In this document: positions 19,004-37,755 of the stretch, piece by piece | Layout of the letters: each line of letters opens with the position of its first letter | Position numbering within the stretch: the stretch's first letter is position 1 | Origin: a virus | DNA length: 64,000 bases | Virus record (IMG/VR): IMGVR_UViG_3300025000_000096 | Coordinates: 1 to 64,000 of that record | Strand: one strand, 5' to 3' | The notes under the pieces: generated by a model | The model's input: the letters and a program-made list of their open reading frames with translations, nothing else | Told to the model about the DNA's origin: nothing | Database searches by the model: none | Program-made: the position numbers and the translations under genes

Positions 19004-19075
19004 TCCCTGATACCATATATGGTAATGGACCTGCTTGGTAAGCAAGTTAAAAGAGTTCAAGTCTCTTTCGGGGAT
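19004..19075 (+). tRNA. tRNA-Thr(GGT)
   Basis: Acceptor TCCCTGA/TCGGGGA, D stem CCAT/ATGG with GG in the loop, anticodon loop TTGGTAA (GGT) and T-loop TTCAAGT in an AAGAG/CTCTT stem. CCA is not encoded. First tRNA of the island. Confidence 0.88.
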
Positions 19076-19085
19076 CAAGGAAATT

Positions 19086-19304
19086 ATGATTTATCAATAC
19101 CGATGCCTCGCCTGCAAAATAGAATATCAAAGACGTGAGTCCATGCTGGAAAAGCACATTTACGTATGCCCCGCTTGCGGAAACGTTACTCGGCGTATGT
19201 TCTTTGCAACAGCCGCAATCGTCAATGGTACCCACTTTGTTGGGCAGCACAAAAATGAGGGTATCACCAGTTCGAATGTTTTAGAGTATGCCTCTAGGAC
19301 TTGA
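19086..19304 (+). CDS. FmdB-like zinc-ribbon protein
   Basis: 72 aa. MIYQYRCLACKIEYQRRE then CPACGNVTRRMFF is the FmdB/CxxC-CxxC-SSSS pattern: an N-terminal YxYxC ribbon of about 40 residues plus a low-complexity tail. ATG at 19086 has AAGGA upstream; the longer frame would run through the tRNA-Thr gene. Role in phages unknown. Confidence 0.75.
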   Translation: MIYQYRCLACKIEYQRRESMLEKHIYVCPACGNVTRRMFFATAAIVNGTHFVGQHKNEGITSSNVLEYASRT

Positions 19305-19330
19305 CAAAATAATCTAAACCATAGTATAAT
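19301..19330 (+). promoter_or_regulatory. sigma70 promoter at the head of the tRNA cluster
   Basis: TTGACA, 18-bp spacer, TATAAT. Overlaps the stop of the FmdB-like gene. Confidence 0.82.
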
Positions 19331-19353
19331 AGTAGTCTAACAAATAAATAATG

Positions 19354-19375
19354 ATCTCCGAAAGGGGATTTTTTA
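19354..19375 (+). terminator. terminator or attenuator before the tRNA cluster
   Basis: ATCTCC, GAAA tetraloop, GGGGAT, then a U-run, only 25-30 nt after the promoter start point. Such a placement suggests attenuation or a processing hairpin in the tRNA leader. Confidence 0.65.
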
Positions 19376-19382
19376 TTCTCTT

Positions 19383-19461
19383 AGGGGTGTGGGCTAGTTC
19401 GGTTTTGGCCACCCGCCTTGGACGCGGGAATATCACGCTGGTTCAAATCCAGCCGCTCCTA
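19383..19461 (+). tRNA. tRNA-Pro(TGG)
   Basis: Acceptor AGGGGTG/CGCTCCT, anticodon stem CCCGC/GCGGG with loop CTTGGAC (TGG), T-arm GCTGG TTCAAAT CCAGC. Somewhat long variable loop. CCA not encoded. Confidence 0.85.
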
Positions 19462-19464
19462 CAT

Positions 19465-19536
19465 GTGCTGGTCGTTCAGTGAATAGGACGTAGATTTGCG
19501 AAATCTACAACAGGGGTTTGACTCCCCTCCAGCACT
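19465..19536 (+). tRNA. tRNA-Arg(GCG)
   Basis: Acceptor GTGCTGG/CCAGCAC, anticodon stem TAGAT/ATCTA with loop TTGCGAA (GCG). The T-loop is TTTGACT, with U56 where C56 is near-universal. Confidence 0.83.
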
Positions 19537-19550
19537 CACAAACTTGGTCC

Positions 19551-19580
19551 TTGACAGAAACACCCAACCAGGTGTATAAT
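19551..19580 (+). promoter_or_regulatory. sigma70 promoter upstream of tRNA-Ala and the large RNA
   Basis: TTGACA, 18-bp spacer, TATAAT (preceded by GTG). It would transcribe tRNA-Ala and the large structured region ending at 20608. Confidence 0.82.
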
Positions 19581-19644
19581 TATAGGGCATTGAACATTTA
19601 CACACGAAAGGCATCTGGTGTAGAAGCTTCCAGAGAAATTTTTT

Positions 19645-19715
19645 GGGCGGATAATATAATGGGATTATACCTGTTTTGCAATCAGAAAATTGGGGTTCGA
19701 TTCCCCATCTGTCCA
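19645..19715 (+). tRNA. tRNA-Ala(TGC)
   Basis: Acceptor GGGCGGA/TCTGTCC includes the G3:U70 alanine identity pair. T-arm TGGGG TTCGATT CCCCA. Anticodon loop reads TGC; the stem is weak, with 27:43 and 31:39 mismatches. Confidence 0.8.
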
Positions 19716-20608
19716 CAACGCACATTTGCCAGGGTCAGTGTCCGACCAACCAGAGGTAAAAACCTGGGCTGGGAACGCAAATGTGTACGGGAACCTCTAG
19801 TTCCCTGGATAAACGCAGCAATGCTTAATAAAGGGATGTGCAGTTACTTGCACGCCCGACTTTAAAAAGTTCAACTAGACGAACACCCGACGCTGTTTAT
19901 CAGGGGTCCCACAGAGCCAATCGGTGAGTGGCTGATACACAGCCTTGTGAAAAGCAGGTGAGGCAGATAAGGCCAAAACAAGAGGGTGGGGCTGCACAGG
20001 CGCTCTAGCAGGCGTGCATGCGGAAAGGTTACAGGCGCTTACACCATACCCCAATGGTCAGGGTCGGAGTAACCATAAGATTGGTAGGGACCGCTAATCC
20101 CGAATAGTCAACAGTTGGTTGCAGTCACTCCATCCGCACAGGCTGGAAAGCTCGGCAGGGTGCAACCGATAAAACAGTATACAAACCTGGCCCGTAAAGG
20201 CCACTTCCCATATTAGTGGAAACCGTATAAAATTGACAAGCCCTGCCGGGGGCATTTGTGACAGACTCCCCTTTGCTCAGGCACTTTACCAGAAATGGGA
20301 GACGAGGCCCATGAGCTCACCGAAAGGTCAAAACTGACGGTGATGTTGTACAGCTGCAGGATTCGTTTCGTCTAGCTAACGCAACGGGTAAGGTGGTATG
20401 GCAGCAGAAAAACAGATGCTTCCTCAGAGGTATGGCACAAACCTCGAAGAGAAACCTACAACCCGATAGCTGATAGGGTCATGGTGTGCGGAGAGACTCG
20501 TTGGGTGCTCCTGGAGACGGGGGTGCGGCTAAACCTGGACACGCAGATGATGCGGACTGGGTAACGCAGCGAGAGTTACTAAGTGGCTACGGTAGTAACA
20601 AATTTTTA
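19716..20608 (+). ncRNA. candidate ornate large RNA (GOLLD/ROOL-like setting)
   Basis: About 890 nt without a credible gene, in a tRNA cluster, downstream of promoter 19551-19580 and ended by a stem-U5 terminator (GTTACTA/TAGTAAC, 20575-20608). Visible helices: a 9-bp long-range stem 19721-19729/19777-19785, a perfect hairpin 19789-19805, GTGCA/TGCAC at 19838-19853, and a GAAA tetraloop at 20322-20325. Size, ornateness and tRNA/phage context match the GOLLD and ROOL RNA classes. I cannot confirm either consensus by eye. Confidence 0.55.
20575..20608 (+). terminator. 3'-end terminator of the large RNA
   Basis: 7-bp stem GTTACTA/TAGTAAC with an 11-nt loop, then AAA and five U's. Confidence 0.65.
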
Positions 20609-20764
20609 TGGACGCATAGATAACAGTAAGTCGCCTTCCCCTACAAGAAAGGAGTCCTGGGGCAGTACCAGGTGTGTCCACACGCTAAGATTTAGCTTTC
20701 AGACCGTTTACCGACTTCATAGGCCGCCTTGCGTGAGCGAGTTTGGGTGCGTAGAAACGGATCT
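20609..20764 (+). other. non-coding spacer, 156 nt
   Basis: No gene seen. Contains short hairpins (CCCC...GGGG, GTGTG/CACAC). Could be leader sequence of the following tRNAs or a part of the large RNA if the terminator is read through. Confidence 0.3.
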
Positions 20765-20833
20765 GCTGTCACTTCCTGGGGATAAGAGGCCCTTGTAGCG
20801 CTTCTGTGGTTGGTTCGACTCCAATTGGCAGCT
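20765..20833 (+). tRNA. tRNA-Thr(TGT), degenerate D-arm
   Basis: Acceptor GCTGTCA/TGGCAGC, T-arm GTTGG TTCGACT CCAAT, loop CTTGTAG reading TGT with a C31-C39 mismatch. The D-arm is 4 nt short with only a 3-bp stem. Length 69 nt. Confidence 0.5.
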
Positions 20834-21029
20834 CATGTCCCGGCCATGGTCTGATCCCATAAATAGGGGTGCGCATGGTTGGGACCGAATTTTCCGAGGG
20901 CTGGTTTTTTGTACATGTCCAGCGGCATCTTCGGAAAAGCCTACAGGCCCTTGCTCCCCCTGCGTGATGGTATTGCGCCAGGCCCGTAAGACGGCGAATG
21001 CAACCAGGGGGACGCAAGAGCACAAATTT
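20834..21029 (+). other. non-coding segment with strong helices
   Basis: A long interrupted helix pairs TTGCTCCCCCTG with CAGGGGGACGCAA (near 20960-21017), and there are GTCCC/GGGAC and CTGG...CCAG pairings. No tRNA or gene recognised. Confidence 0.35.
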
Positions 21030-21103
21030 GCCACCTTAGCTCAAATGGATGGAGCACCCGCCTTCGAAGCGGTAGGCTGCTGGATCGTACCCTGCAGGTG
21101 GCA
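21030..21103 (+). tRNA. tRNA-Arg(TCG) with swapped T-loop
   Basis: Acceptor GCCACCT/AGGTGGC, D stem GCTC/GAGC, anticodon loop CTTCGAA (TCG). The T-loop is ATCGTAC (21084-21090): A54 and U58 instead of U54 and A58. One U-U mismatch in the T stem. Confidence 0.85.
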
Positions 21104-21204
21104 CTCAGCTGCGCACGCTGATCAAAGGCTATCAATAATTCGAGGCCAAGACAGCTAATTAGTACGGTCCGAAAGGGCGTGTGGCAGCTTCTTTGGGAAA
21201 TCAT
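21104..21204 (+). other. non-coding spacer
   Basis: About 100 nt between two tRNAs. No gene, promoter or complete tRNA fold seen. Confidence 0.3.
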
Positions 21205-21277
21205 TGCCTCTGGGTGCGGATAGTATGCACGTATCGCTTTGAACGATAAGACGCAGGGGCGGAGCCTGCAGAGGCAA
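21205..21277 (+). tRNA. tRNA-Gln(TTG), non-canonical T-loop
   Basis: All four helices are perfect: TGCCTCT/AGAGGCA, GTGC/GCAC, TATCG/CGATA and GCAGG/CCTGC. The anticodon loop CTTTGAA reads TTG. The T-loop is GGCGGAG and positions 8-9 are GG, so most tertiary-contact bases differ from normal tRNAs. Confidence 0.6.
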
Positions 21278-21323
21278 CTTGGGCTAGGTGGTAGGCCATT
21301 ATTTACAACACCAGCCTAGTTCG

Positions 21324-21330
21324 ATTGTAG
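21324..21330 (+). promoter_or_regulatory. ATTGTAG motif
   Basis: Copy of the recurrent ATTGTAG motif, 5 nt before the ATG of the HNH gene. See the motif finding. Confidence 0.4.
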
Positions 21331-21335
21331 CAAGC

Positions 21336-21908
21336 ATGAGCACAAATAAAAAAGCCAATAAAGTAAAAGAGCTGCTACGATTAGGGGTCTCTACAAAAGA
21401 GATTTGTGAGGCAACCGGCCTTAAGAAGGGGGTTATTAGCTACCATCGTAACCGCCTCGGGGTAGAGATTGGTAAATATGGCAACCGATATGATTGGGAA
21501 GATATTCAGCGGGTGTATGACGCTGAGCAGCTTACCTATGATGAACTACATGCCAGATTTGGGGTCACAAAAACACCAATAAGTCTTGCCATCTCCCGTG
21601 GTGACTTTACACCGAGAGTTACAGAAGCCACATTTTCAGAAAGAACCCTTTTCGAGGTGGATCAAAGTCACAGAGTGGGTGGAACAAACAGGCAAGCTAT
21701 CAGGAGACACGCCCGAACAGTGCTTAACAGAGCAGGAGTTCCCAAGGTTTGCTCCTCTTGTGACTGGAAAGAGCATGTAGAGGCTTGTCATATCAGGCCA
21801 ATAGTTTCTTTCCCCCCAAGCACGCCTATCTCTGAGATCAATGCGCTAGACAACTTAACGTATTTATGCCCAAATTGCCATTGGGTACACGACCACAAGT
21901 CAGAATAG
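21336..21908 (+). CDS. HNH endonuclease with HTH domains
   Basis: 190 aa. Two N-terminal HTH-like segments (about 9-35 and 50-80) resemble DNA-binding modules of homing enzymes. The C-terminal HNH has CSSCDW, EACHIRP and CPNCH with a zinc-binding cysteine pair. Probably a free-standing homing endonuclease in the tRNA island. ATG at 21336 lacks a clear ribosome site, and an ATTGTAG motif ends 5 nt upstream. Related to the HNH at 29399-29986. Confidence 0.82.
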   Translation: MSTNKKANKVKELLRLGVSTKEICEATGLKKGVISYHRNRLGVEIGKYGNRYDWEDIQRVYDAEQLTYDELHARFGVTKTPISLAISRGDFTPRVTEATFSERTLFEVDQSHRVGGTNRQAIRRHARTVLNRAGVPKVCSSCDWKEHVEACHIRPIVSFPPSTPISEINALDNLTYLCPNCHWVHDHKSE

Positions 21909-21921
21909 CCTTTTATATCAT

Positions 21922-21996
21922 TTCCCCTTAGTCTAATTGGTAGCTTGACGGAACTTTCTGAAAGTTCAGATCTTGGTTCGAGTCCAGGAGGGGAAA
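21922..21996 (+). tRNA. tRNA-Gln(CTG)
   Basis: Acceptor TTCCCCT/AGGGGAA, anticodon stem GAACT/AGTTC with loop TTCTGAA (CTG), T-arm CTTGG TTCGAGT CCAGG. Enlarged D-loop. Confidence 0.8.
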
Positions 21997-22037
21997 CACG
22001 AGACCCTTTAGTAGTCAAGAGAATTTAAGGAGCAAGC

Positions 22038-22424
22038 ATGTATCATTACCCTGACAGGTCTTTGAGCACTCCAGCCTTTATCATCACAGTCCTTTCCGCA
22101 ATCCTTTTGACTGGTTGGTACTTTTTCGCCTACTGGGGCACTCAGCAAACAGCACAGATAACAGTCCTTAGAACAGACACAGTTATTTCCGGGGTAGGAG
22201 ACACTGCTTCTGGAAAATACCTGGTGTATGCAGAGTTCCCATCCGGTGCTCGGGAAACGCTTGAAAACGAGGACTGCCTACTCACTGGTAAGTTCAACTC
22301 CTCCGATGTGCAAAATGAACTTGCAACAAACATTGGCGGAAAGTACTCTGTAGAGCTCTACGGTTGGCGAATACCGTGGCTGTCAGCATACCGAGGAATC
22401 TGTAGAATCTCTCCCATTGAATAA
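22038..22424 (+). CDS. membrane-anchored protein, 128 aa
   Basis: Short cytoplasmic N-terminus, one transmembrane helix (about residues 12-32), then a beta-rich domain starting TAQITVLRTD. It resembles the DUF1523-type family by general layout only. AAGGAGCAAGC precedes the ATG. Placed between tRNA genes. Function unknown. Confidence 0.7.
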   Translation: MYHYPDRSLSTPAFIITVLSAILLTGWYFFAYWGTQQTAQITVLRTDTVISGVGDTASGKYLVYAEFPSGARETLENEDCLLTGKFNSSDVQNELATNIGGKYSVELYGWRIPWLSAYRGICRISPIE

Positions 22425-22943
22425 GACGATACCCTGGGGTGTACACTCCGGCAGAAAATAGGAAGCTCCCTAAAGACATGGCATCTTTCCGCTTCAAGAG
22501 GTGGATAAGACTGTCTCCTCGGACTAGCCGGGGTGTGGGGTCGGACAAGGCTTCTGCAACGGACTGTTTCGCAGGTTACATAGCCCAACGTAGAAACCTG
22601 CACGATCAGGAAGACTGTTACCCCTTTTCATAGAGGCGTTCCACCGAGCATAGAAAAGAGGCTTGGATTCTTAGTATAAATGGAAAATACACCGGGCCGT
22701 AACCCCGCGAATGCTGAATCATACTCAGCAGAATCCACCTAGGCATGCCAGATTCGGTTCTGGCCTCTGCAAAAAGTTATAGGTCAACGCATTCTGAGAT
22801 ACTGAATGAAAGACCTCCCAGAAACCCTGGGTACTCTTAGGACATTATGCTACTCCTGTGGGAATAAGAGCCCAAACGAGCATACAAGGGCAGGCCGGGA
22901 AGTGTGCCCAAGCTGGATAAGCCCCTAGGCCAGCAGGCACTAT
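22425..22943 (+). other. 519-nt non-coding stretch with structured elements
   Basis: No convincing gene. Contains a GCTGA/TCAGC hairpin with loop ATCATAC (anticodon-like CAT), a GCCAG/CTGGC hairpin with loop ATTCGGTT, a CGGG/CCCG hairpin and AGAGGC/GCCTCT long-range pairing near 22660-22775. It may hold a second structured RNA or a tRNA-Met relic. Confidence 0.4.
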
Positions 22944-23017
22944 GCGTCTTTAGGATCAACTTGGTAGACCAACTCGTTGCCAATGAGTAGGTGCCGGATC
23001 GTACCCGGCAAGACGCA
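22944..23017 (+). tRNA. tRNA-Gly(GCC) with swapped T-loop
   Basis: Acceptor GCGTCTT/AAGACGC and T stem GCCGG/CCGGC are perfect; anticodon loop TTGCCAA (GCC). The T-loop ATCGTAC (22998-23004) carries A54/U58. The cleanest example of the swap. Confidence 0.87.
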
Positions 23018-23087
23018 CAAGCGAGCACACGCTATATGCCTAGGCCCGTTGCAAAGGCCCATGTGACTTTAGGCTACAGTCGCTTGA
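23018..23087 (+). tRNA. tRNA-like element, possible Ala(TGC)
   Basis: Abuts the previous tRNA. Acceptor CAAGCGA/TCGCTTG is perfect. GGCC/GGCC closes a 9-nt loop CGTTGCAAA that reads TGC with a C31-A39 mismatch. T-arm TGTG/CTACA has loop CTTTAGG without UUCG. G3:U70 is absent. May be a degenerate tRNA or a mimic. Confidence 0.35.
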
Positions 23088-23278
23088 CAACAGCTGCGTG
23101 TACCGGACAGTCATAGTTGGCGCCGGTGTAACAAATGCAACTTCCAGCAACCAGGCTCTGGACACCAAAAGCCTGATCGGCCACCAGATTAATGGGTGGA
23201 AATCCCTGGCAGGACAGACAGACGAACCGGGAACTGCACATACCGGGTGGGGTGGAGGCCAGGACAAAGTGCTTATTT

Positions 23279-23354
23279 CGGCGCATAGTTTAGGTGGTCA
23301 AAATGCCCGTCTTATGAATGGGGATGCCTGGTTCGAGTCCAGGTGCGCCGACCA
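23279..23354 (+). tRNA. tRNA-Ile(TAT)
   Basis: Acceptor CGGCGCA/TGCGCCG with A73 and encoded CCA; anticodon stem CCCGT/ATGGG with loop CTTATGA (TAT); T-arm CCTGG TTCGAGT CCAGG. Reads AUA. Confidence 0.85.
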
Positions 23355-23376
23355 CATGCCCCAATAAAAAAAAAAT

Positions 23377-23461
23377 GCTCTCTTGGCGGAATGGTATACG
23401 CAGCAGTTTGAGATGCTGTGAGACGTAATGTCTCGTGAGAGTTCGAATCTCTCAGAGAGCA
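23377..23461 (+). tRNA. tRNA-Leu(GAG)
   Basis: Acceptor GCTCTCT/AGAGAGC, anticodon loop TTGAGAT (GAG), long variable arm GAGAC/GTCTC, T-arm GAGAG TTCGAAT CTCTC. Confidence 0.88.
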
Positions 23462-23464
23462 CAC

Positions 23465-23535
23465 GCTGTGATAGTTTAACGAAAACGTCCGGGATCATGC
23501 ACCGGAAGACCCTGGAACCGTACCCAGGTGTGGCA
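23465..23535 (+). tRNA. tRNA-Met(CAT), degenerate
   Basis: Anticodon arm CCGG...CCGG with loop ATCATGC (CAT) and a G31-A39 mismatch; D stem GTTT/AAAC with a 5-nt loop lacking GG; acceptor GCTGTGA/GTGTGGC relies on wobble pairs; T-loop AACCGTAC is 8 nt. Could be a decayed or specialised tRNA. Confidence 0.4.
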
Positions 23536-23761
23536 CATAAATCGGCTTCCAGAGGACCTGCAGAGAGTCTGGGAGTGGACAGGACTTCATCTCGGTAAAT
23601 AGTATAATTCTACCGAGGGTTTTCTCCAGACACCATACATTGGGGAGGTTTAGCTAAGTCGTTTCTTCCAAAAACCTTAGTCCCAGGCAACTGGGCAGTT
23701 TTGTGTGCGAGTGGTCACTAAACCATCACCGTTATGGGTTTTGTCGAAAAAAGCCCAACTT
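23536..23761 (+). other. non-coding spacer with hairpins
   Basis: Holds a CTCGGTA/TACCGAG stem followed by GGTTTTC (terminator-like, about 23591-23623) and a CCCAG-GCAA-CTGGG hairpin near 23681-23695. No gene seen. Confidence 0.4.
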
Positions 23762-23832
23762 TGCCCCATCGGCTAATGGCAAGTCGTCTTTCTGTTAAAG
23801 AGATTATCCAGGTCCGATTCCTGGTGGGGCAG
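23762..23832 (+). tRNA. tRNA-Asn(GTT)
   Basis: Acceptor TGCCCCA/TGGGGCA, loop CTGTTAA (GTT), T-loop TCCGATT (C55), G73 as expected for Asn. Confidence 0.85.
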
Positions 23833-23945
23833 CTGAGGGTTGGTCTGCTAATATCCAAAGTCGAGGAGTCTGCACTCGGAAACTTGGCAGCCGTAAAATG
23901 GAAGCTGGGGATTGACTAACCCCAACCAAGTTAACCTGATCTTTT

Positions 23946-24019
23946 GGCCTGTTGGTCTATGGGTATGACTACACTCTGTCGAAGTGTGTGAGCGAGTCCG
24001 AGTCTCGCACAGGCCGCCA
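23946..24019 (+). tRNA. tRNA-Asp(GTC)
   Basis: Acceptor GGCCTGT/ACAGGCC, loop CTGTCGA (GTC), T-loop TCCGAGT (C55), G73 and encoded CCA. Confidence 0.87.
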
Positions 24020-24195
24020 CAGGCCCAGAAGTGGGTGTTGCAGCAGAGATAACTCTCCTACACAAAAAACTATGCTGGAGGCAGACGCAGGCCAACGACC
24101 CTCTGAAATAAGTGGGTATGCTTTGGCGAACGGATAGAACCTCGGTTGAAATGACCGAATACGCCCCCCACCTGACGGCACCTGGAGGGGAATAC

Positions 24196-24266
24196 GCTTC
24201 CTTCTGCTAAAAGTAGGCTCTGTCCCCCTCACGGACAGGATGCGGTTGCAAGATCCGCAGGAAGCA
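24196..24266 (+). tRNA. tRNA-Glu(CTC) with C33
   Basis: Acceptor GCTTCCT/AGGAAGC, D-arm TGCT...GGCT like the neighbouring tRNA-Glu, anticodon stem TGTCC/GGACA with loop CCCTCAC (CTC, C33). T stem GCGG/CCGC closes TTGCAAGAT with a U53-U61 mismatch. Confidence 0.6.
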
Positions 24267-24268
24267 CA

Positions 24269-24408
24269 GGGCACACAAGGCTGTCCAGTTTCAGCGCATG
24301 GTCAAACGCACGCCTAGGCTACGTGTTAGTAGTAAGTTGTGTGGGTTCGACTCCCCACCACCAGTAGCTTCTGGTATCGGTTCCGGTAAGACTCCGGGAT
24401 GTGTGCCC
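24269..24408 (+). other. 140-nt structured element closed by a 9-bp helix
   Basis: GGGCACACA (24269-24277) pairs perfectly with TGTGTGCCC (24400-24408). Inside are a T-arm-like TCCGG TAAGACT CCGGG (24382-24398), a GTGGG/CCCAC hairpin over TTCGACTC, and GCTAC/GTAGC. Tightly packed between two tRNAs. Too long for a normal tRNA; identity unknown. Confidence 0.45.
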
Positions 24409-24412
24409 AAAT

Positions 24413-24487
24413 GGTTGCTTAGCTCAGTTGGATAGAGCGCTGCCTCGACATGGCAGAGGTTCACTGGTTCGAGCCCAGTAGCTACCA
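24413..24487 (+). tRNA. tRNA-Val(GAC) with C33
   Basis: Acceptor GGTTGCT/AGCTACC (one U-U), D stem GCTC/GAGC, anticodon stem CTGCC/GGCAG with loop TCGACAT: anticodon GAC and C33 instead of U33. T-arm ACTGG TTCGAGC CCAGT. Confidence 0.83.
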
Positions 24488-24497
24488 CAAGAAGTCC

Positions 24498-24597
24498 GTA
24501 ACCTTGCCGCCAGGGGCATTAACGGTTCGAGTCCGTTTTGGTGCTGAACACGCCATAAGTTATGGGAACAAACCTGTTCGACCCAGGAGAGGTTACG
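24498..24597 (+). tRNA. tRNA-like element, ambiguous (Phe or Ser-like)
   Basis: GTAACCT (24498) pairs with AGGTTAC (24590). Between them are a CCTG TTCGACC CAGG T-arm, a TGGTG/CGCCA arm with loop CTGAACA (GAA) and an AACGG/CCGTT arm with loop TTCGAGT (CGA). About 100 nt, with one arm too many for a standard tRNA. Confidence 0.35.
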
Positions 24598-24607
24598 GTT
24601 TCTACTT

Positions 24608-24678
24608 GTCCCCTTCTGCTAAAGGAAGGCACACTCGTTTTCAGCGAGAAAATAGGATTTCGAGATTCCTAGGGGACA
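24608..24678 (+). tRNA. tRNA-Glu(TTC)
   Basis: Acceptor GTCCCCT/AGGGGAC, D stem TGCT/GGCA, anticodon loop TTTTCAG (TTC), T-loop TTCGAGA with a U53-U61 mismatch. Confidence 0.8.
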
Positions 24679-24970
24679 CAAGTTCCTTTATGCCTGATAC
24701 GCATAAGAAAGAGACCATAATTGGCTCGTTAAAAAAGTAGGTGGTCTACTGCAGATAAGCAGCGATAAGGTCCGTTGCTCCTACGTTAAGGAGCCCACTG
24801 CTGAGGCCCTGGACGGGCGAGGGGTTCGACTCCCCATAATCCCCCGGATGGGGACTTTGTTCGATTCAATAAAGCAGTCATGTGTGCGCAGCGCATTGGA
24901 GGAAGGCCCCCTAGGCACATAAATTACAAGGGGGGTAGCCCACGCTCGTTGGGTTTATGCGTGGATAACT
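24679..24970 (+). other. 292-nt non-coding stretch with many hairpins
   Basis: No gene seen. Includes a TATGC/GCATA arm with loop CTGATAC (anticodon-like GAT), AGTAG/CTACT, GCTCCT/AGGAGC and GGGG TTCGACT CCCC hairpins, and a CCCC-CGGAT-GGGG stem. Probably one or more structured RNAs or tRNA relics. Confidence 0.4.
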
Positions 24971-25061
24971 TGGGTGGTGACAGAGTGGTAATGTTGCCGT
25001 CTTGAAAATGGACGATGTCCCGAAGAGGGGCACGGGGGTTCAACTCCCTCCCACCCAGCCA
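24971..25061 (+). tRNA. tRNA-Ser(TGA)
   Basis: Acceptor TGGGTGG/CCACCCA, G73 and encoded CCA, loop CTTGAAA (TGA), long variable arm, T-arm GGGGG TTCAACT CCCTC. Confidence 0.85.
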
Positions 25062-25089
25062 CAAACAGTGACCGTTAGGAGATGAGAGA

Positions 25090-25299
25090 ATGGAAAACAG
25101 CAAGTACACGGCAGAGTCGGCCTTGGGCCGGATCAGCAGGTCTGGTGGAGCAGTGTCGGACAAGGCCATCTACGCCCCAAATGTTGGGTGTGGCACACAG
25201 GGAGCGATTGATTTTCTGGTGAAGGTGCACGGCTACCACAGAACGCTGGTCGCCCCTGAAAAGAAGGCGTTTGTGAAGAAGGAATTTGTTGGCTCCTAG
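25090..25299 (+). CDS. small protein, 69 aa, ending inside tRNA-Cys
   Basis: ATG at 25090 with AGGAG upstream. Basic product with a Gly/Ser-rich N-terminal half and a KKAFVKKEF tail. The last nine bases, including the TAG stop, are the 5' end of tRNA-Cys, so processing the tRNA would destroy the 3' end of this mRNA. No family recognised. Confidence 0.6.
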   Translation: MENSKYTAESALGRISRSGGAVSDKAIYAPNVGCGTQGAIDFLVKVHGYHRTLVAPEKKAFVKKEFVGS

Positions 25300-25362
25300 T
25301 CCGATAGGCTGAGGAGGTAGTCCGCAAAACTACTGAAGGCGGATCGTTACCGCCAGGAGCCT
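25291..25362 (+). tRNA. tRNA-Cys(GCA) with C33 and swapped T-loop
   Basis: Acceptor GGCTCCT/AGGAGCC with U73, the Cys identity base. Anticodon stem GTAGT/ACTAC, loop CCGCAAA (GCA, C33). T stem GGCGG/CCGCC perfect, loop ATCGTTA (A54/U58). Confidence 0.82.
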
Positions 25363-25367
25363 CATAC

Positions 25368-25439
25368 ACGAGCACGGTCCGATGGTCGGGTGGCAGCCTT
25401 CCAAGCTCGCAGGTCTCGGTTCGAGTCCGAGTGTTCGTA
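25368..25439 (+). tRNA. tRNA-Gly(TCC)
   Basis: Acceptor ACGAGCA/TGTTCGT, loop CTTCCAA (TCC), T-arm CTCGG TTCGAGT CCGAG. The two outer anticodon-stem pairs are mismatched. Confidence 0.78.
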
Positions 25440-25627
25440 CAAAGTTGTCAGTAAGAACGTGGTTTTGCATCCACTAAAGCTTAAACTGGACAAAGACCAT
25501 TCGTCCTGTAGAAAATATCCGGCGCCAGCAATAGCCTGGCCTCCTGCTAAGGGGTATATCAAAAGCTCGGTTTCAGAAGATGTGCGGCAGCAGTGGTCCC
25601 TCCGGTAGTGTGCCTGGAACCGGAAAT
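25440..25627 (+). other. non-coding spacer
   Basis: 188 nt between tRNAs. Contains GTGG/CCAC, CTGCT/AGCAG and CCGG pairings but no complete tRNA or gene that I can support. Confidence 0.3.
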
Positions 25628-25699
25628 GCTCTCTTAGGTTAATCGGCAAGCCCCCTGTTTCGTAGACAGGATTCCCGAGATCGTAACTCGGAGAGAGCT
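25628..25699 (+). tRNA. tRNA-Thr(CGT) with swapped T-loop
   Basis: Acceptor GCTCTCT/AGAGAGC, D stem GGTT/AGCC, anticodon stem CCTGT/ACAGG with loop TTCGTAG (CGT), T stem CCGAG/CTCGG with loop ATCGTAA (A54/U58). Confidence 0.85.
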
Positions 25700-25703
25700 C
25701 AAT

Positions 25704-25774
25704 GGCCTGATAGTTTTTAAAGCGGCAGAACAGACGAAAATCGGAAAGTGCTGGTTCGAGCCCAGCAAAGGCCA
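25704..25774 (+). tRNA. tRNA-like element without a readable anticodon arm
   Basis: GGCCT/AGGCC acceptor core and a perfect T-arm GCTGG TTCGAGC CCAGC; D stem GTTT/GAAC. The middle (around ACGAAAATCG) forms no 5-bp arm with U33. Possibly a decayed tRNA. Confidence 0.4.
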
Positions 25775-25781
25775 GGTACTT

Positions 25782-25869
25782 GGATAGCTGAAAGAGTGGT
25801 AATTTGCCCAGTTGCTAACTGGAGGCCGCCCGGAAGGGCACGTAGGTTCGATTCCTACGCTATCCGCCA
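25782..25869 (+). tRNA. tRNA-Ser(GCT)
   Basis: Acceptor GGATAGC/GCTATCC, G73 and encoded CCA, loop TTGCTAA (GCT), long variable arm, T-arm CGTAGG TTCGATT CCTACG region. Confidence 0.9.
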
Positions 25870-25879
25870 GAGGACTTTT

Positions 25880-26794
25880 ATGAATATTTTTACTTTAGTG
25901 GTTACTTACACAGTATTCCTCCCCATGATGTTTGCTCCGGTTATCAAGCCAGAGGAGTCAAAACTTGGGGGGTACTTTTTAGACGTTCAGACTATGGTAC
26001 CCCATCAGTGGGGTAAAATCGACAGTCGTTGGGCTGAGGGCACAGAGTCATCAAACGGTGTATACGACTGGACGTATTTAGACAGAGCAGTAGGCAAGAT
26101 CCGAGCAGCTGGCGGGTTCGTGATGATAAATATTCATCGAACACCTGATTGGGCCAGAACATCCCCCTACAAGTGTCACTTACCCGACGACTTGTTTTAT
26201 CTGAGAAGGTTTGCAAAGGCCATAATTGACAGGTACCATCCAGAGTATTTAGAGTTCTGGAATGAGCCTGAAATGTCACAAGAAACTGCGACCAGCCTAC
26301 AGAGTTGCTGTGGCTGCCTATACCCAAATGAGTATAGGCTTGCCCTAAATGACCTGTACACAAACGTTGTAAATAACACAGACACAAAGTTGGTCGCCGG
26401 TGCCTTCCTATTTGATTGGCCCTGGATACAAGAGTTCTTCGAAAGTGGACCAGTGGCTGCGGACGTAATATCCTACCACCACTACAATTATGGCTTGGAT
26501 ACAAGCCCGACCAGCCTGCTGATCGAGAGGGGCCTTTTGCAGGGGTACACAAGTATCCCTATCATCTTGACAGAAACAAGTTTGATCTGCGATAAGTGTG
26601 CTCCCCAGTTCAGAGATTACCAAGCGCTGTGGATGTATGAAGTCAACAAGCACGACTTTCCGCTGGTTATCTGGTATAGCCAGGACAACGTTGGCTGGCG
26701 GTTTTGCAACTTGACAAGCTCTAAGGGCTTTGTAAAGTACCCAGCCTTTTACGCTCTTAAGGACATTGTAGAGTCCCCGTGGTGGCTCCCATGA
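25880..26794 (+). CDS. clan GH-A glycoside hydrolase
   Basis: 304 aa. TIM-barrel glycosidase features: YLEFWNEP (about 123-130, acid/base E129), SYHHYNY (about 198-204) and IILTETS (nucleophile E231), as in GH39/GH5-like enzymes. A hydrophobic N-terminal segment (about 3-20) may be a signal peptide or membrane anchor. Substrate unknown; it could act on host surface polysaccharide. ATG at 25880 lies just after tRNA-Ser; the longer frame would run through that tRNA. Shares an ATGA overlap with the next gene. Confidence 0.75.
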   Translation: MNIFTLVVTYTVFLPMMFAPVIKPEESKLGGYFLDVQTMVPHQWGKIDSRWAEGTESSNGVYDWTYLDRAVGKIRAAGGFVMINIHRTPDWARTSPYKCHLPDDLFYLRRFAKAIIDRYHPEYLEFWNEPEMSQETATSLQSCCGCLYPNEYRLALNDLYTNVVNNTDTKLVAGAFLFDWPWIQEFFESGPVAADVISYHHYNYGLDTSPTSLLIERGLLQGYTSIPIILTETSLICDKCAPQFRDYQALWMYEVNKHDFPLVIWYSQDNVGWRFCNLTSSKGFVKYPAFYALKDIVESPWWLP

Positions 26795-27249
26795 AAATCT
26801 TAACTTCCCTCCTTCTCCTTGTTACTCTTCTGCTGATTAGCTTTTCGGGTGCGTCTGCAGAGGCTATTTTCCAGCCAGTAATTGGAATCAGCTACCAGCC
26901 GACAGAGTACGTGGTCATTGTAACGGCCACGCTCACAAACCCGCACAAGTCAGTTTGCATGATCAGTCAGGTTGACAGCGGAAACTTCAACTTTACAGTG
27001 TGCGAATTTGGAACAGTGTCCTACTTCTGCCACTTACCATTAGCGCCCGCAGACACTACTGTAGCTTGGGCTGTCAATGCAACAACGGGCAATGGCTGCA
27101 ACGGCGCATTTACGCCTGGCCCAAGCGGATCTTTCCCAAGTCGAGAGGCCCCACCAACCGCTGTGAGGGTTGTAAGGGCTCGGGTGTACATTAAGACCTG
27201 GATAGCAGATCTGTACAACTTTATCTCACAAAACATATTTCAACGATAA
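26791..27249 (+). CDS. predicted secreted protein, 152 aa
   Basis: A clear signal peptide (hydrophobic residues about 4-22, ending GASAEA) is followed by a beta-rich domain with four cysteines, perhaps two disulfides. Starts inside the glycosidase stop, so the two are co-translated and probably exported or surface-linked partners. No family recognised. Confidence 0.7.
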   Translation: MKILTSLLLLVTLLLISFSGASAEAIFQPVIGISYQPTEYVVIVTATLTNPHKSVCMISQVDSGNFNFTVCEFGTVSYFCHLPLAPADTTVAWAVNATTGNGCNGAFTPGPSGSFPSREAPPTAVRVVRARVYIKTWIADLYNFISQNIFQR

Positions 27250-27255
27250 CTACTC

Positions 27256-27328
27256 GGCAGCATAGTTCAGGGGTAAGAACACACGCCTTTTAAGCGTCGA
27301 AACGTGGGATCGAGATCCACTACTGCCA
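27256..27328 (+). tRNA. tRNA-Lys(TTT)
   Basis: Acceptor GGCAGCA/TACTGCC (one mismatch), D stem GTTC/GAAC, loop CTTTTAA (TTT), T-loop ATCGAGA closed by G-U. Confidence 0.83.
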
Positions 27329-27428
27329 CTAGCCTGTACCAGCTGAACCCAGGCATAATACTGAGCCTGGCTAGACTATACGTGGTAATCCCAGAAATGG
27401 GGCAATCTCTTGCTGGCAGGCTTCTTAT

Positions 27429-27519
27429 GTCCTATAGGTGGTATTGGCGCTACACGCCGCACTTAAAATGTGGTGCTGGACTAACTCCCCAGCTACAAGT
27501 TCGAATCTTGTATAGGACA
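27429..27519 (+). tRNA. tRNA-Leu(TAA)
   Basis: Acceptor GTCCTAT/ATAGGAC, anticodon stem CCGCA/TGTGG with loop CTTAAAA (TAA), long variable arm GCTGG/CCAGC, canonical T-arm. Confidence 0.9.
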
Positions 27520-27523
27520 CTAC

Positions 27524-27610
27524 GGGCTTATGGTGGAATGCAGACACGCTACCCTCAGAAGGTAGAGGCCATAGGAATATGCCGTGCAGGGTCGAGTCCT
27601 GCTAAGCCCA
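27524..27610 (+). tRNA. tRNA-Leu(CAG)
   Basis: Acceptor GGGCTTA/TAAGCCC, stem CTACC/GGTAG with loop CTCAGAA (CAG), long variable arm, T-loop GTCGAGT (G54). Confidence 0.88.
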
Positions 27611-27672
27611 CAAACCCATTGAACAATTAAAGCGCTTATGGCTGGAGGACGACACTCCGAATGGGTTTATAC

Positions 27673-27751
27673 GTCCCATTGGCGGAATTGGTCTACGCAA
27701 TACCCTTAGAAGGTATCCGAAAGGGTCTCAGTCCGAATCTGAGATGGGACA
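27673..27751 (+). tRNA. tRNA-Leu(TAG)
   Basis: Acceptor GTCCCAT/ATGGGAC, stem ATACC/GGTAT with loop CTTAGAA (TAG), variable arm CCGAAAGG, T-loop TCCGAAT (C55). Confidence 0.87.
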
Positions 27752-27801
27752 CACAAAACACCAAATCTGTGGTATACTTAAGGGATCAGGAGACAAACAC
27801 G

Positions 27802-28770
27802 TTGACAAAGCTACTTGAGGATGCTGTAGCCGGTGTGAATAAGAAGTATGGGTCGCTGAGCATTTTAACCCTTGACAGTGACAGCGTAGAGGCGGTGGAC
27901 GTTATCTCTACTGGATCTTTAATGCTTGACAGGGCAATTGGCGTGGGCGGGATACCTCGTGGGAAGATCACAGAGATCTACGGACCAGAGTCCTCTGGAA
28001 AGACCACCCTCTGCCAGCACATAGTTGCCAATGCTCAGCGTAAAGGAATTGCAAGCCTCTACATTGATATGGAGCACGCAACCGACCCCACATACCTTGC
28101 AAGGACTGGGGTGGACCTGCACAAGCTGCTCTTCTCCCAGCCGGACGATGGAACCCAGGCTCTTGGAATTGCAGAAGATATGATCAAGTCTGGTCAGGTC
28201 GGCCTGGTGATCATTGACTCTGTGTCCTCTCTTGTCCCAAAGGCTGAGGCAGAGGATGCTGACATGGGCGATGCTGTAATGGGCATGCAGGCCAGGTTGA
28301 TGTCCCAGGCCCTTAGAAAGATCAACCCAGCGATAAAACGATCAAACACAGCTGTCATTTTCACAAACCAGTTGCGTAACAAGATTGGAATTTTTTTTGG
28401 GAGCTCTGAGACAACCTCTGGTGGGAACGCCCTCAAATTCTACGCCTCTCTCCGATTGGACATCCGCCGAGCAGAGTTTCTAAAGGTGGGCACGGAGATT
28501 GTTGGGATCGAGAGCAAAGTGACCATCAAGAAGAACAAGGTGGCTGCACCGTTCAAAGAAGCTAGATTCGAGATCCGTTACCCAAACGGGATAGACGAGG
28601 TCTCAGATGTGTTTTCAGCATCCGTTGAAACAGGGGTTATTGAGCAGCGAGGTGGGCACTACTACTACAACGGTGAGAAGCTGGGTCATGGACGGGACGC
28701 TGTATTGGCTATTTTACGATCAGCCCCTGGAACAGTTGAAGATCTGAGAAATCAGGTATTGACAAGATAG
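27802..28770 (+). CDS. recA: RecA recombinase
   Basis: 322 aa. GPESSGKTT (Walker A, about residue 60), VIIDSV (Walker B, about 136), loop 2 region with FTNQLRNKIG and the GGNALKFYASLRLDI segment are all canonical. Forms ATP-dependent filaments on single-stranded DNA for strand exchange. TTG at 27802 with AGGAGA upstream; the longer frame would run through tRNA-Leu. An extended -10 (TGTGGTATACT) at 27768-27778 may drive it. Lacks most of the usual C-terminal acidic tail. Confidence 0.93.
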   Translation: MTKLLEDAVAGVNKKYGSLSILTLDSDSVEAVDVISTGSLMLDRAIGVGGIPRGKITEIYGPESSGKTTLCQHIVANAQRKGIASLYIDMEHATDPTYLARTGVDLHKLLFSQPDDGTQALGIAEDMIKSGQVGLVIIDSVSSLVPKAEAEDADMGDAVMGMQARLMSQALRKINPAIKRSNTAVIFTNQLRNKIGIFFGSSETTSGGNALKFYASLRLDIRRAEFLKVGTEIVGIESKVTIKKNKVAAPFKEARFEIRYPNGIDEVSDVFSASVETGVIEQRGGHYYYNGEKLGHGRDAVLAILRSAPGTVEDLRNQVLTR

Positions 28771-28788
28771 CACCTTTGGGTGTATAAT
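28759..28788 (+). promoter_or_regulatory. sigma70 promoter at the end of recA
   Basis: TTGACA, 18-bp spacer, TATAAT, overlapping the recA stop and followed at once by an ATTGTAG copy (28787-28793). Confidence 0.82.
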
Positions 28789-28794
28789 TGTAGT

Positions 28795-29150
28795 TAATAA
28801 GAACGGGCCTGAAAAGTTTCGATTCTTGCACATAAAGCTAAGTGGTCATGCACAAAAATCAAATGCTAAAGAAGAACCAATCAACGTGACTTCCGAGTTT
28901 GAACAGCTCTTTGCCGGGGTTTTCTCCGGGGCAGTGGCAGCCTAGCACAGCTAAAAGGCTCCTGGTGGAAAGCCAGTCATCCCTAAACTGGCAAGTATGT
29001 ACCTCACATAGTAAAATATAGAGGAAAGCATGTAAGGACACGACCCAAAAGCGAGAAGACGACGCTGCAATGCGTCCAGGTCCACAGAATGGGTGACCGG
29101 GTAAATCCGGGGGTAGCTTGGAAGAGGCAAACCAGGCAGAACATTAACAT
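28795..29150 (+). ncRNA. candidate non-coding RNA, about 355 nt
   Basis: Gene-free stretch just after promoter 28759-28788 and before tRNA-Leu(CAA). Contains GCCAGT/ACTGGC and CTGG/CCAG hairpins and TGCC...GGCA around CCGG/CCGG. No terminator seen, so it may be processed from the tRNA transcript. Confidence 0.45.
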
Positions 29151-29155
29151 AGCAT

Positions 29156-29229
29156 GCCCTTATGGTGGAACGGCTTACACAAGCGCCTCAAAACCGCTAC
29201 AATTCCAGGTTCGAATCCTGGTAAGGGCA
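29156..29229 (+). tRNA. tRNA-Leu(CAA) lacking a long variable arm
   Basis: Acceptor GCCCTTA/TAAGGGC, Leu-like D-arm (TGGTGG...CAC), loop CTCAAAA (CAA) with a C31-C39 mismatch, perfect T-arm. The variable loop is only about 6 nt. Confidence 0.78.
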
Positions 29230-29319
29230 CAATCCACATTTATGTGGCGTGGGCATCTGCGTTAATGGCTGTAACGGTTTATATGCTGACACGTAACACG
29301 GAGGAAGCATAATTAATTT

Positions 29320-29398
29320 TGTGGGATGCCGCAGTGGACCACCGGCGCGGGCTCATAACCCGATGATATGATCAGCAGTTCGAATCTGCTTCCCGCAA
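29320..29398 (+). tRNA. tRNA-Met(CAT), initiator-like
   Basis: Acceptor TGTGGGA/TCCCGCA, anticodon arm with the three G:C pairs GGG/CCC around CTCATAA, as in initiator tRNA. T-arm AGCAG TTCGAAT CTGCT. The 1:72 pair is a weak U-A. The variable loop is about 10 nt. Confidence 0.8.
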
Positions 29399-29986
29399 CT
29401 ACAAAAGCGTGATGCCTTTGTCAAACTCCCAGTGACAGTTTGGGCATAGCAGGACAAGGTTATCCGGGTCTGATATTACTGATAGCAGCGTGTCTCCTGA
29501 AAAGGAGCTTACAGACTTTATGTGACAGACCTCAACATGTTTATTGTACCCACAGACAAAGCACTTTTTCTCTCTTGCCGCTACTGCCTCTATGGCTAGG
29601 GTGCGAAACTCGCTCCTTGCAGACTGCCAAGAGTTCCTTTTGGCAAACATTTCTTTCTTGGTTAGGGAAAGTGAGGACCTACCGCCTCTTTTTGTGCATT
29701 TGCGGCAGCGTAACCCCCTACTCGACTTACTTGCACCACACTGTAGGCAGACGTGCTTCTTTGGTGGGCAGCTGATTCCTCGTTGTCGGTTATTAAATAT
29801 GGCAGCACAGGATCTTGTGCAGAATGTTTTCTGCCGAATATCAGATACTTTTTGATCCCCAACCACAATCACCTCTCCGCACTCCTTACAGTGCTTGGGA
29901 TTCTCGTAGTACTTTGACAATGCTTCGTTTCGCAGTTTTATTGCGGTAGCTTTTCCACCAGTAGTCCAAGAGTTTCGATTTGGCAT
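29399..29986 (-). CDS. HNH endonuclease with zinc ribbons
   Basis: 195 aa. An N-terminal CKECG...C ribbon, a CLQCG...CRKC ribbon, then a C-terminal HNH (CFVCGYNKH, EVCHIK, LVLLCPNCHW) similar to the HNH at 21336. Only gene on the minus strand inside the tRNA island, ending against the initiator-like tRNA. ATG at 29986 is used because the upstream part of the frame is low-complexity and shows no domain. An ATTGTAG motif lies 29 nt upstream on its strand. Confidence 0.8.
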   Translation of the reverse strand: MPNRNSWTTGGKATAIKLRNEALSKYYENPKHCKECGEVIVVGDQKVSDIRQKTFCTRSCAAIFNNRQRGISCPPKKHVCLQCGASKSSRGLRCRKCTKRGGRSSLSLTKKEMFAKRNSWQSARSEFRTLAIEAVAAREKKCFVCGYNKHVEVCHIKSVSSFSGDTLLSVISDPDNLVLLCPNCHWEFDKGITLL

Positions 29987-30014
29987 ATGTAGCGCCCTCC
30001 ATAGACGCTGATTT

Positions 30015-30021
30015 CTACAAT
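30015..30021 (-). promoter_or_regulatory. ATTGTAG motif (minus strand)
   Basis: Copy of the recurrent motif in the orientation of, and 29 nt before, the minus-strand HNH gene. Confidence 0.45.
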
Positions 30022-30343
30022 CAAACTCGAAATACTGCTGCGCTACCAACCTATATCCCCATAATTCATTCAGATAGAATAGTCGCCCCCTAAGCGACAG
30101 GGCTCGGAGCATAGCCGAGTGGGGATACATAGCAGACAGGTAATGGTGACACCTTGTAAATGCGTGCACGACATCACCCGGCAGTCGAGTTTGCAGCTTG
30201 CGTAGCCAAAAACTCTGATGAGCGCCAACTAAACCGAGAGCGCACGACAAAAGAAAGTTGATAACTAAACTCCTTTCCAGTTGGCTAGGTAAACTGACTG
30301 CGCAAGCTGTTTCCCCGTTCAGATGAAAAACGGGGAACAACAT
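30022..30343. other. about 320 nt without a supported gene
   Basis: Open frames exist on the minus strand but lack domains. A strong CCCCGTT/AACGGGG hairpin at about 30312-30335 lies just before tRNA-Arg and may be a terminator-like or processing structure. Confidence 0.35.
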
Positions 30344-30415
30344 ACCTCTATCGTTCAACGGATAGGACGGCACATTTCTAAGGTGCATATCTCGGTTCAA
30401 GTCCGGGTGGGGGTA
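30344..30415 (+). tRNA. tRNA-Arg(TCT)
   Basis: Acceptor ACCTCTA/TGGGGGT, D stem GTTC/GGAC, anticodon arm GCAC/GTGC with loop TTTCTAA (TCT) and an A31-G39 mismatch, T-arm CTCGG TTCAAGT CCGGG. Confidence 0.84.
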
Positions 30416-30483
30416 CAACAGAGACTGTTATACGTACATAGACCCGGATTTAACCAGGGGTATCATAGAACGTCAGATCACTT

Positions 30484-30554
30484 GCCACTTTCGTATAAAG
30501 GTATTACACTACTCTGAAGAAGTAATTATCTGGTTTCGAGATCCAGGGGTGGCA
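30484..30554 (+). tRNA. tRNA-Phe(GAA)
   Basis: Acceptor GCCACTT/GGGTGGC, loop CTGAAGA (GAA), T stem CTGG/CCAG with TTCGAGA and a U53-U61 mismatch. G37 rather than A37. Confidence 0.75.
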
Positions 30555-30704
30555 CAACAGGCGGATTTGCTTGCCGAGGCACGACATCCTTATCAAGGGG
30601 GGTGTCGGCCCTTAGAAGTATCGGAGAAATCTAGTGGGTGAGAGACCCATCCAATAGGGTGCAAGGCCCAGCACTTTCCCCCATAGCAAAGCTGGTTAAG
30701 CTCA
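30555..30704 (+). other. 150-nt non-coding spacer with a large hairpin
   Basis: A long hairpin around GACATCC/GGGGTGTC (about 30583-30609) is the main feature. No gene seen. Confidence 0.35.
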
Positions 30705-30711
30705 ATTGTAG
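30705..30711 (+). promoter_or_regulatory. ATTGTAG motif
   Basis: Motif copy 22 nt before the ATG of the HNH gene at 30734. Confidence 0.45.
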
Positions 30712-30733
30712 CTTGTGGGAGATGGTAACATTT

Positions 30734-31579
30734 ATGGGAAACTCAACACACGTAACAGCATTTAGGAAGAGGAGAATCCAATACGCAAGGGGGCTTCTTG
30801 GAAGCAAGTGCTGCCTGTGCGGCTACAGTACCTTTGGTGGTGCTTTAGACTTTCATCACATAGATCCAGCAGAGAAAGTGTTCATTATTTGCACAAGTAA
30901 GACACCCGGATCATTACAGTTTTTCAAAGAGTTGGCTAAGTGTGTCCTTTTGTGTGCAAATTGTCACCGGGAAGTTGAGGCTGGTGTCACTGAGGTACCC
31001 CCAGACGTCTATAGGTACTCCTTCTCGGAGGAGGATGTTAAGCGGTTCTTTAGCACCGCCAGCAACTATCACGTCAAACCTACCAGGGTGTGCTCAGTGT
31101 GTGGGGGTCCTGTCCCTGGACAGAGGGTATACTGCTCTCCCGCTTGTTCTGGCCTTTCCGCAGAGCATAAACGAAAAATCCCCAGCTCTGTAGAGGAACT
31201 AACCAGTCTCCTACAAGAGCATAATTGGAACATATCATCAGTTGCTCGTTCTCTTTTTGTAACCCAATCTGGGGTTAGGAAGGCCCTTAAGGCTGCTGGC
31301 CTGATCCGGCGCAGGGAGACAGCTACTGCGGTTTGCGGTTTTTGCGGGGAGGAAATCCCCAAGGGCACCTACAATAAGTACTGTTCCCGTGCCTGTCAGA
31401 ATCGTGGAAATCCTTCTGCGGTGTTATTTGAGGAGGATTTAGCCCGTGTTTTACAGGAATACGAGCGTAGTGGTTTTATTCTTAGGGTTGCCGCTAGGCA
31501 GCTCGGAATAAACTACAGCACGCTAAAGGGTTTTTTGGTCAGAAATAAAGTATATCATGCCAGTATAACTCAGAGGTAA
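30734..31579 (+). CDS. HNH endonuclease with HTH and zinc ribbons
   Basis: 281 aa. N-terminal HNH (CCLCGY, LDFHHIDP, CVLLCANCHREV, about residues 26-85), then two Cys-rich ribbons (CSVCGGP, CGFCGEE) each followed by an HTH-like segment (about 145-190 and 230-275). The order suggests a homing enzyme with a modular DNA-reading tail. ATG at 30734 is preferred (GGAG 12 nt upstream); 30722 is possible. The last 21 nt overlap tRNA-Lys(CTT). Confidence 0.82.
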   Translation: MGNSTHVTAFRKRRIQYARGLLGSKCCLCGYSTFGGALDFHHIDPAEKVFIICTSKTPGSLQFFKELAKCVLLCANCHREVEAGVTEVPPDVYRYSFSEEDVKRFFSTASNYHVKPTRVCSVCGGPVPGQRVYCSPACSGLSAEHKRKIPSSVEELTSLLQEHNWNISSVARSLFVTQSGVRKALKAAGLIRRRETATAVCGFCGEEIPKGTYNKYCSRACQNRGNPSAVLFEEDLARVLQEYERSGFILRVAARQLGINYSTLKGFLVRNKVYHASITQR

Positions 31580-31631
31580 GAGTTTCCGCCCCTTAAGCGG
31601 AGAGTCGCAGCGTCGAGACCTGCTACTGGCA
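31559..31631 (+). tRNA. tRNA-Lys(CTT) with C33
   Basis: Acceptor GCCAGTA/TACTGGC, D stem ACTC/GAGT, anticodon stem TCCGC/GCGGA with loop CCCTTAA (CTT, C33). T stem GCAG/CTGC around GTCGAGA with a C53-C61 mismatch. Confidence 0.82.
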
Positions 31632-31633
31632 CA

Positions 31634-31709
31634 CGCGCGTTAGTTTATTCGGATGAAAGAATGCTCGGCTGTGACCCGAGAGGGAGGGGATCGTAGCCCC
31701 TACGTGCGA
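31634..31709 (+). tRNA. tRNA-His(GTG) with swapped T-loop
   Basis: Acceptor CGCGCGT/ACGTGCG, anticodon stem CTCGG/CCGAG with loop CTGTGAC (GTG), T stem AGGGG/CCCCT with loop ATCGTAG (A54/U58). The usual G-1:C73 is not evident. Confidence 0.8.
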
Positions 31710-31714
31710 CTTTT

Positions 31715-31787
31715 GCTCGCTTAGCATAAGTGGTCAGTGCAGGCGTCTGATAAATGCCAGAACTGCGTTCAAGTCGCAGAGTGAGCA
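31715..31787 (+). tRNA. tRNA-Ile(GAT)
   Basis: Acceptor GCTCGCT/AGTGAGC, anticodon stem GGCGT/ATGCC with loop CTGATAA (GAT), T-arm CTGCG TTCAAGT CGCAG. Confidence 0.9.
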
Positions 31788-31810
31788 CAGCCCCTACGAA
31801 GGGGGGAAAT

Positions 31811-31882
31811 GTGTCTATGGTGTAGTTGGTAGCACGAAGGTCTCCAAAATCTTTGGCGGTTGTTCAAAGCAACCTAGGCACG
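31811..31882 (+). tRNA. tRNA-Trp(CCA)
   Basis: Acceptor GTGTCTA/TAGGCAC, G73, anticodon stem AAGGT/ATCTT with loop CTCCAAA (CCA), T-arm GGTTG TTCAAAG CAACC. Last tRNA of the island. Confidence 0.9.
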
Positions 31883-31920
31883 CTGTATCTTGTGTTCTGT
31901 TGTCGTTTACCTGGAGAAAG

Positions 31921-37730: not shown

Positions 37731-37755
37731 AGTAGTAACCTCCTGTGATTACTGA

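Follow-up and report, generated by a model that had tools for sequence, protein, structure and literature searches.

The question raised by this locus was whether a gene-free stretch of about 890 nt among the tRNA genes of a phage encodes a structured RNA and to which class such an RNA would belong. The window (the whole stretch of DNA analysed, 64,000 nt) comes from a virus record of 64.6 kb with terminase, portal, RNR, RecA and other phage genes; its tRNA cluster occupies 19004–31883 and holds at least 29 tRNAs (29 by ARAGORN), so that the phage tRNA cluster named in the preliminary description was found around the RNA. The stretch 19717–20609 begins one base past tRNA-Ala and was confirmed as gene-free (each frame has 10–16 stops, and no open run exceeds 63 codons). 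A conserved coding frame, which had been named as evidence against an RNA, was not found when the frames of the window sequence and its homologue were compared, and the conserved-coding reading was rejected, no frame being shared. The fold of the stretch was somewhat better than that of shuffles (z −2.6).

Relatives were found via the portal protein (portal alignment, 14 loci), tRNA clusters were located in them, and the RNA was compared with those clusters; TerL-based and genome-contig searches for relatives gave none. One full-length homologue was obtained from a related 92-kb phage record (G005; L039 3340–4207, with nhmmer homology over L039 3357–4237 at E 2.9e-26), with 54% identity over ungapped columns. 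It lies inside a tRNA cluster, with a degenerate tRNA-like sequence on one side and tRNA-Trp directly following on the other, an ORF being present only upstream; it also stands behind a perfect promoter (L039 3212–3240), and both copies have a perfect TTGACA/TATAAT promoter upstream and tRNAs or tRNA-like cloverleaves on either side. Motif scanning, four times over viral contigs and once over genome contigs, yielded no third member and returned the known homologue only; the remaining matches failed nhmmer and the covariance model and were rejected. When phage and plasmid collections were searched by BLASTN, with each homologue and with the 3′ domain as query, the result was nothing or chance matches of 19–35 nt; in 16 phage records the 3′ domain model matched the two members and no other. 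In the other relatives with tRNA clusters the RNA is absent as far as their records go; because most related phages with tRNA clusters are without it, the RNA is not essential to this phage group.

Full-length folds computed from each sequence singly agreed poorly between the homologues, and consensus and helix-level tests with shuffles were therefore used; RNAalifold, when given the raw alignment, overfits wherever that alignment is poor, and it was left out of the helix claims. On the unadjusted MAFFT alignment of the two sequences, the best non-crossing helix set contained 95 base pairs in 18 helices common to both RNAs, 43 of them with both bases changed, versus 47 shared pairs and 22 double changes in shuffles of the pair alignment; score: 233 (real), 104 ± 13.5 with a maximum of 137 (shuffles), 141 (reverse complement). 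Since the reverse complement was much weaker, the RNA was assigned to the plus strand. Consensus-fold energy on the sequence-only alignment lay 7.6 SD below column shuffles for the whole RNA and 6.8 SD below them for the 3′ domain. In the 3′ three-way junction 22 of 22 pairs are kept and 8 are doubly changed; when pair partners in the 3′ domain were slid by 1–3 columns, 0–1 double changes were left. The covariation check on homologues that the preliminary description had proposed was thus run on one homologue, with shared pairs and double changes far beyond shuffles, and the large structured RNA postulated there is strongly supported by this independent sequence. The stretch 19717–20609 is almost certainly a real structured RNA, the folded shape of which has been kept by evolution while its letters largely changed. 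Two known sequences limit pair-by-pair significance; parts of the 5′ domain are uncertain and the model (Table 1) is provisional.

Table 1. Features of the large RNA and its flanks (window coordinates).
Feature	Coordinates	Strand	Evidence and remarks
Sigma-70 promoter TTGACA-N18-TATAAT	19551–19580	+	12/12 consensus; 5′ of tRNA-Ala and large RNA
tRNA-Ala (UGC)	19645–19716	+	Abuts 5′ end of large RNA
Large structured RNA body	19717–20609	+	nhmmer homology, covariation, no Rfam match; ~883–893 nt, exact ends inferred
5′ helix CACAUUUGC/GCAAAUGUG	19721–19785	+	Structure-aided alignment; encloses covarying hairpin 19750–19753/19764–19767
Large 5′ domain	19730–20245	+	Closing long-range helix 19730–19735/20240–20245, CAGGGU/GCCCUG; homologue CAGGGG/CCCCUG
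Possible loop pairing (pseudoknot) 19796–19801/19874–19879	19796–19879	+	Kept in homologue
Long arm, four stacked covarying helices	20254–20417	+	11 double changes
Longest invariant run UUCGUCUAGCUAACG	20367–20381	+	Hairpin CGU[CUAGCUA]ACG capping long arm
Hairpin GAGGU/ACCUC (homologue GAUGU/GCAUC)	20427–20445	+	Loop motif UGGCA in both
3′ three-way junction	20497–20573	+	Closed by CUCGUUG/CAGCGAG; homologue GCUGUAC/GUGCAGC
9-bp GNRA-capped hairpin (GAGA; homologue GAAA)	20505–20526	+	3 double changes
Invariant junction segment GGCUAAACCUGG, stem ACCUGG/CUGGGU and inner hairpin	20527–20562	+	
Terminal hairpin UUACUA/UAGUAA (homologue UAUGAG/CUCGUA)	20575–20599	+	5 double changes
AU-rich spacer AAATTTTTAT before tRNA-like cloverleaf	20600–20609	+	Homologue: AATTTCAT before tRNA-Trp
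tRNA-like cloverleaf, non-canonical T loop, 7-bp acceptor stem, 5-bp T stem	20610–20681	+	Fold

Local elements proposed earlier fared differently. The 9-bp helix 19721–19729/19777–19785 exists, and its pairing is kept in the homologue (GCUGGC/GCCAGU); the hairpin that it encloses has 3 double changes. The hairpin 19789–19805 likewise exists, and its loop may pair with 19874–19879 (UCUAGU/ACUAGA; homologue UCUGGU/ACCAGG). The GAAA tetraloop at 20322–20325 is not conserved and lies inside a 31-nt stretch missing from the homologue. The long arm is built of helices 20254–20259/20412–20417, 20273–20277/20400–20404, 20354–20357/20393–20396 and 20364–20367/20383–20386; the CUAGCUA loop at its tip is the most constrained element and holds a 6-nt palindrome, UAGCUA (20373–20378), and an invariant run of 15 was reached in 0.7% of column shuffles. 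In the 3′ junction 5 of the 7 pairs of the closing helix are changed on both sides; the inner hairpin, identified by inspection of both sequences, is CGCA-GAUGA-UGCG (homologue CUGU-GAUGA-GUAG). The stem of the terminal hairpin is almost wholly replaced between the homologues, its loop core UGGCUAC being invariant.

The 3′ end had been described as a stem-U5 terminator at 20575–20608. The terminator scan reports none and, since the homologue has the hairpin followed by its own spacer and tRNA-Trp, this segment is better read as a structural hairpin and spacer. The cloverleaf that follows was not called by ARAGORN. Sequences that are tRNA-like or low-scoring as tRNAs were observed at 20610–20681, 20765–20834 and 21205–21278, one with a non-canonical T loop; they are possibly decayed tRNAs or processing signals.

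As to the upstream promoter that the RNA was said to own, the promoter is real (Table 1) and its exclusive assignment was withdrawn: it lies upstream of tRNA-Ala, so that tRNA-Ala and the large RNA share it. The RNA would accordingly be transcribed with the neighbouring tRNAs from a strong sigma-70 promoter and would be released by tRNA end-processing enzymes: RNase P would act at the downstream tRNA, and the upstream tRNA would undergo its own 3′ processing. As tRNA-Ala directly borders the RNA on the 5′ side, such release would be the simplest route to a discrete RNA, and excision together with the tRNAs is considered fairly probable. A second perfect TTGACA-N18-TATAAT promoter was observed at 19301–19330, upstream of tRNA-Pro, which suggests several strong promoters inside the tRNA cluster. 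HNH-type or zinc-finger endonuclease-like genes lie in or beside the cluster (21288–21908, 30638–31579, 32419–33294), and the RecA gene (27661–28770) lies within it.

A second stretch of the cluster, 28790–29150, likely contains a divergent phage tmRNA behind a perfect promoter. It was missed by ARAGORN and Rfam; 28796–29012 resembles tmRNAs that ARAGORN calls in two relatives, L045 2188–2490 (nhmmer E 5.9e-6) and L043 5478–5741 (E 0.003), and the candidate has a readable tag, AKEEPINVTSEFEQLFAGVFSGAVAA*, that ends like ssrA tags. In related phages tmRNAs were observed at L042 3585–3876, L044 4583–4911 and at the L043 and L045 positions just given; three of these have unusually long predicted tags (about 26–30 aa).

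The preliminary description had left the choice between GOLLD, ROOL and a new class, to be settled by a scan with the Rfam models, and the scan matched neither. GOLLD (RF02032; gathering 150 bits) and ROOL (RF03087; gathering 99.1 bits) gave no match at E up to 10 in the window (positions 19300–21400), the homologue and ten phage records (the window phage and nine related ones). The positive control of the library was ROOL only, the known pMP118 ROOL being recovered at 130.4 bits; the ROOL scan of the ten records was silent in control genomes too, and the ROOL negative is carried by the window and homologue scans with the pMP118 control. HEARO, OLE, group I and group II intron models gave no match in window or homologue at E up to 10, and Rfam on the RNA stretch returned tRNAs and below-threshold chance matches only (gathering thresholds; E up to 10). 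With both models unmatched, the new-class branch stands and the GOLLD/ROOL branch is not supported; by these comparisons the RNA is very probably neither. One test for a new family, a secondary structure that is conserved through compensatory changes and assignable to one strand, gave a positive result, and there is a strong case that the RNA represents a new family, so far of two members, among the ornate type of phage RNA that adjoins tRNA genes.

The overall explanation that we prefer, and consider reasonably probable, is a phage non-coding RNA of about 890 nt, of a new family, that would be co-transcribed with tRNAs and serve as a self-assembling scaffold acting on translation. Its fold would comprise a large 5′ domain, then a long arm capped by the invariant palindromic loop, and at the 3′ side a three-way junction that includes a GNRA loop. 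Copies would join by loop–loop contacts, in which CUAGCUA pairs either with its counterpart or with UGGCUAC in a second copy; UAGCUA of the arm loop is also complementary to UGGCUA of the terminal loop. The predicted loop–loop duplexes are modest, about −5.3 and −5.5 kcal/mol. CUAGCUA is a possible kissing-loop site for self-assembly, by comparison with GOLLD and ROOL; a palindromic loop is expected by chance in about 3% of 7-nt loops, of which there are many, and the palindrome alone is weak evidence. Self-assembly in the manner of GOLLD and ROOL is put forward tentatively; RNA-only multimers would be compatible with a palindromic loop that is invariant and sits on a covarying arm. That the RNA is a new ornate class, sequence-unrelated to these two, that would build an RNA-only multimer via the palindromic loop on its long arm, is possible though rather unlikely. 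A role in translation during infection, in which the RNA might, for example, hold tRNAs or ribosomes, is doubtful.

The same invariant loops could be binding sites and not self-contacts, in which case the structured RNA would act as a monomer, with the ribosome or a protein of phage or host as its partner, in the manner of the 6S and OLE RNAs with theirs. Invariant unpaired GGCUAAACCUGG, UGGCUAC and CUAGCUA beside fully diverged helices suit a binding site equally, and a 6-nt palindrome could be chance; no partner gene, however, is linked to the RNA, and its size and ornateness resemble RNA-only multimers (PMC12286853). This monomeric reading is conceivable, its probability being rather low. 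That the RNA is a very divergent GOLLD or ROOL beyond recognition by the Rfam models is improbable. The phage tRNA cluster, a size near that of GOLLD (env-38: 833 nt), a division into a 5′ and a 3′ domain and a loop complementary to itself would agree with it, and GOLLD has self-interacting kissing loops in its 3′ region (PMC12286853); the absence of any match at E up to 10, while a known ROOL scores 130 bits, argues against it, as does the most conserved 3′ region of the window RNA, which is unmatched although the GOLLD model covers the conserved GOLLD 3′ region. That the RNA is a ribozyme tied to the HNH endonuclease gene at 21288–21908, whether a divergent self-splicing intron or of another kind, is very unlikely: HNH genes are common in the cluster and large ORF-less RNAs beside them can be introns or HEARO, but none of these models matched, the element lies between tRNAs and not inside a gene, and in the homologue tRNA-Trp follows directly, with the ORF only upstream. 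Equally slight is the probability of a mere long spacer of a pre-tRNA transcript, structured incidentally and by itself functionless, which the position within a tRNA operon and the long spacers elsewhere in the cluster would allow, since covariation is far beyond shuffles and this is the sole ORF-free inter-tRNA stretch strongly similar to a relative, the tmRNA-like one excepted.

PMC12286853 leaves open how widespread nanocages are among large natural RNAs, and a second question is why such RNAs adjoin phage tRNA genes. Both questions become testable with an additional family that occupies this niche and shows no detectable relationship to those already described; the homologue pair is divergent enough to define helices, and UAGCUA is a specific, mutable candidate contact. 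If the reading as a new class with an RNA-only multimer is true, RNA-cage or RNA-scaffold formation would have an independent example within phage tRNA clusters. The RNA may be a further member of the small set of giant "ornate" RNAs encoded by phages.

Among known systems, OLE is likewise a large ornate bacterial RNA and forms homo-oligomers, but its model does not match and it is not known as a phage tRNA-cluster RNA. Staphylococcus phage K has a non-coding stretch of ~1 kb beside tRNAs (37679–38650), and PMC9241854 reports abundant, unclassified lncRNAs in this phage that are GOLLD/ROOL-like by location; this stretch showed no similarity to the window RNA profile, and the 3′ domain model did not rise above noise on it. 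Like the window RNA, ROOL is a phage or prophage RNA near tRNAs with ornate secondary structure; its model (574 positions) is unmatched by the window RNA. GOLLD is an RNA-only homo-14-mer cage and ROOL an RNA-only nanocage. Self-interacting kissing loops occur in the 3′ region of GOLLD (PMC12286853), and the likeness of the palindromic loop to them would be one of functional analogy, not homology. The window RNA differs from GOLLD in having no covariance-model match at E up to 10, but it shares with it phage encoding, a length above 800 nt, a two-domain layout, a candidate self-complementary kissing loop and, together with its homologue, the phage or prophage location near tRNAs.
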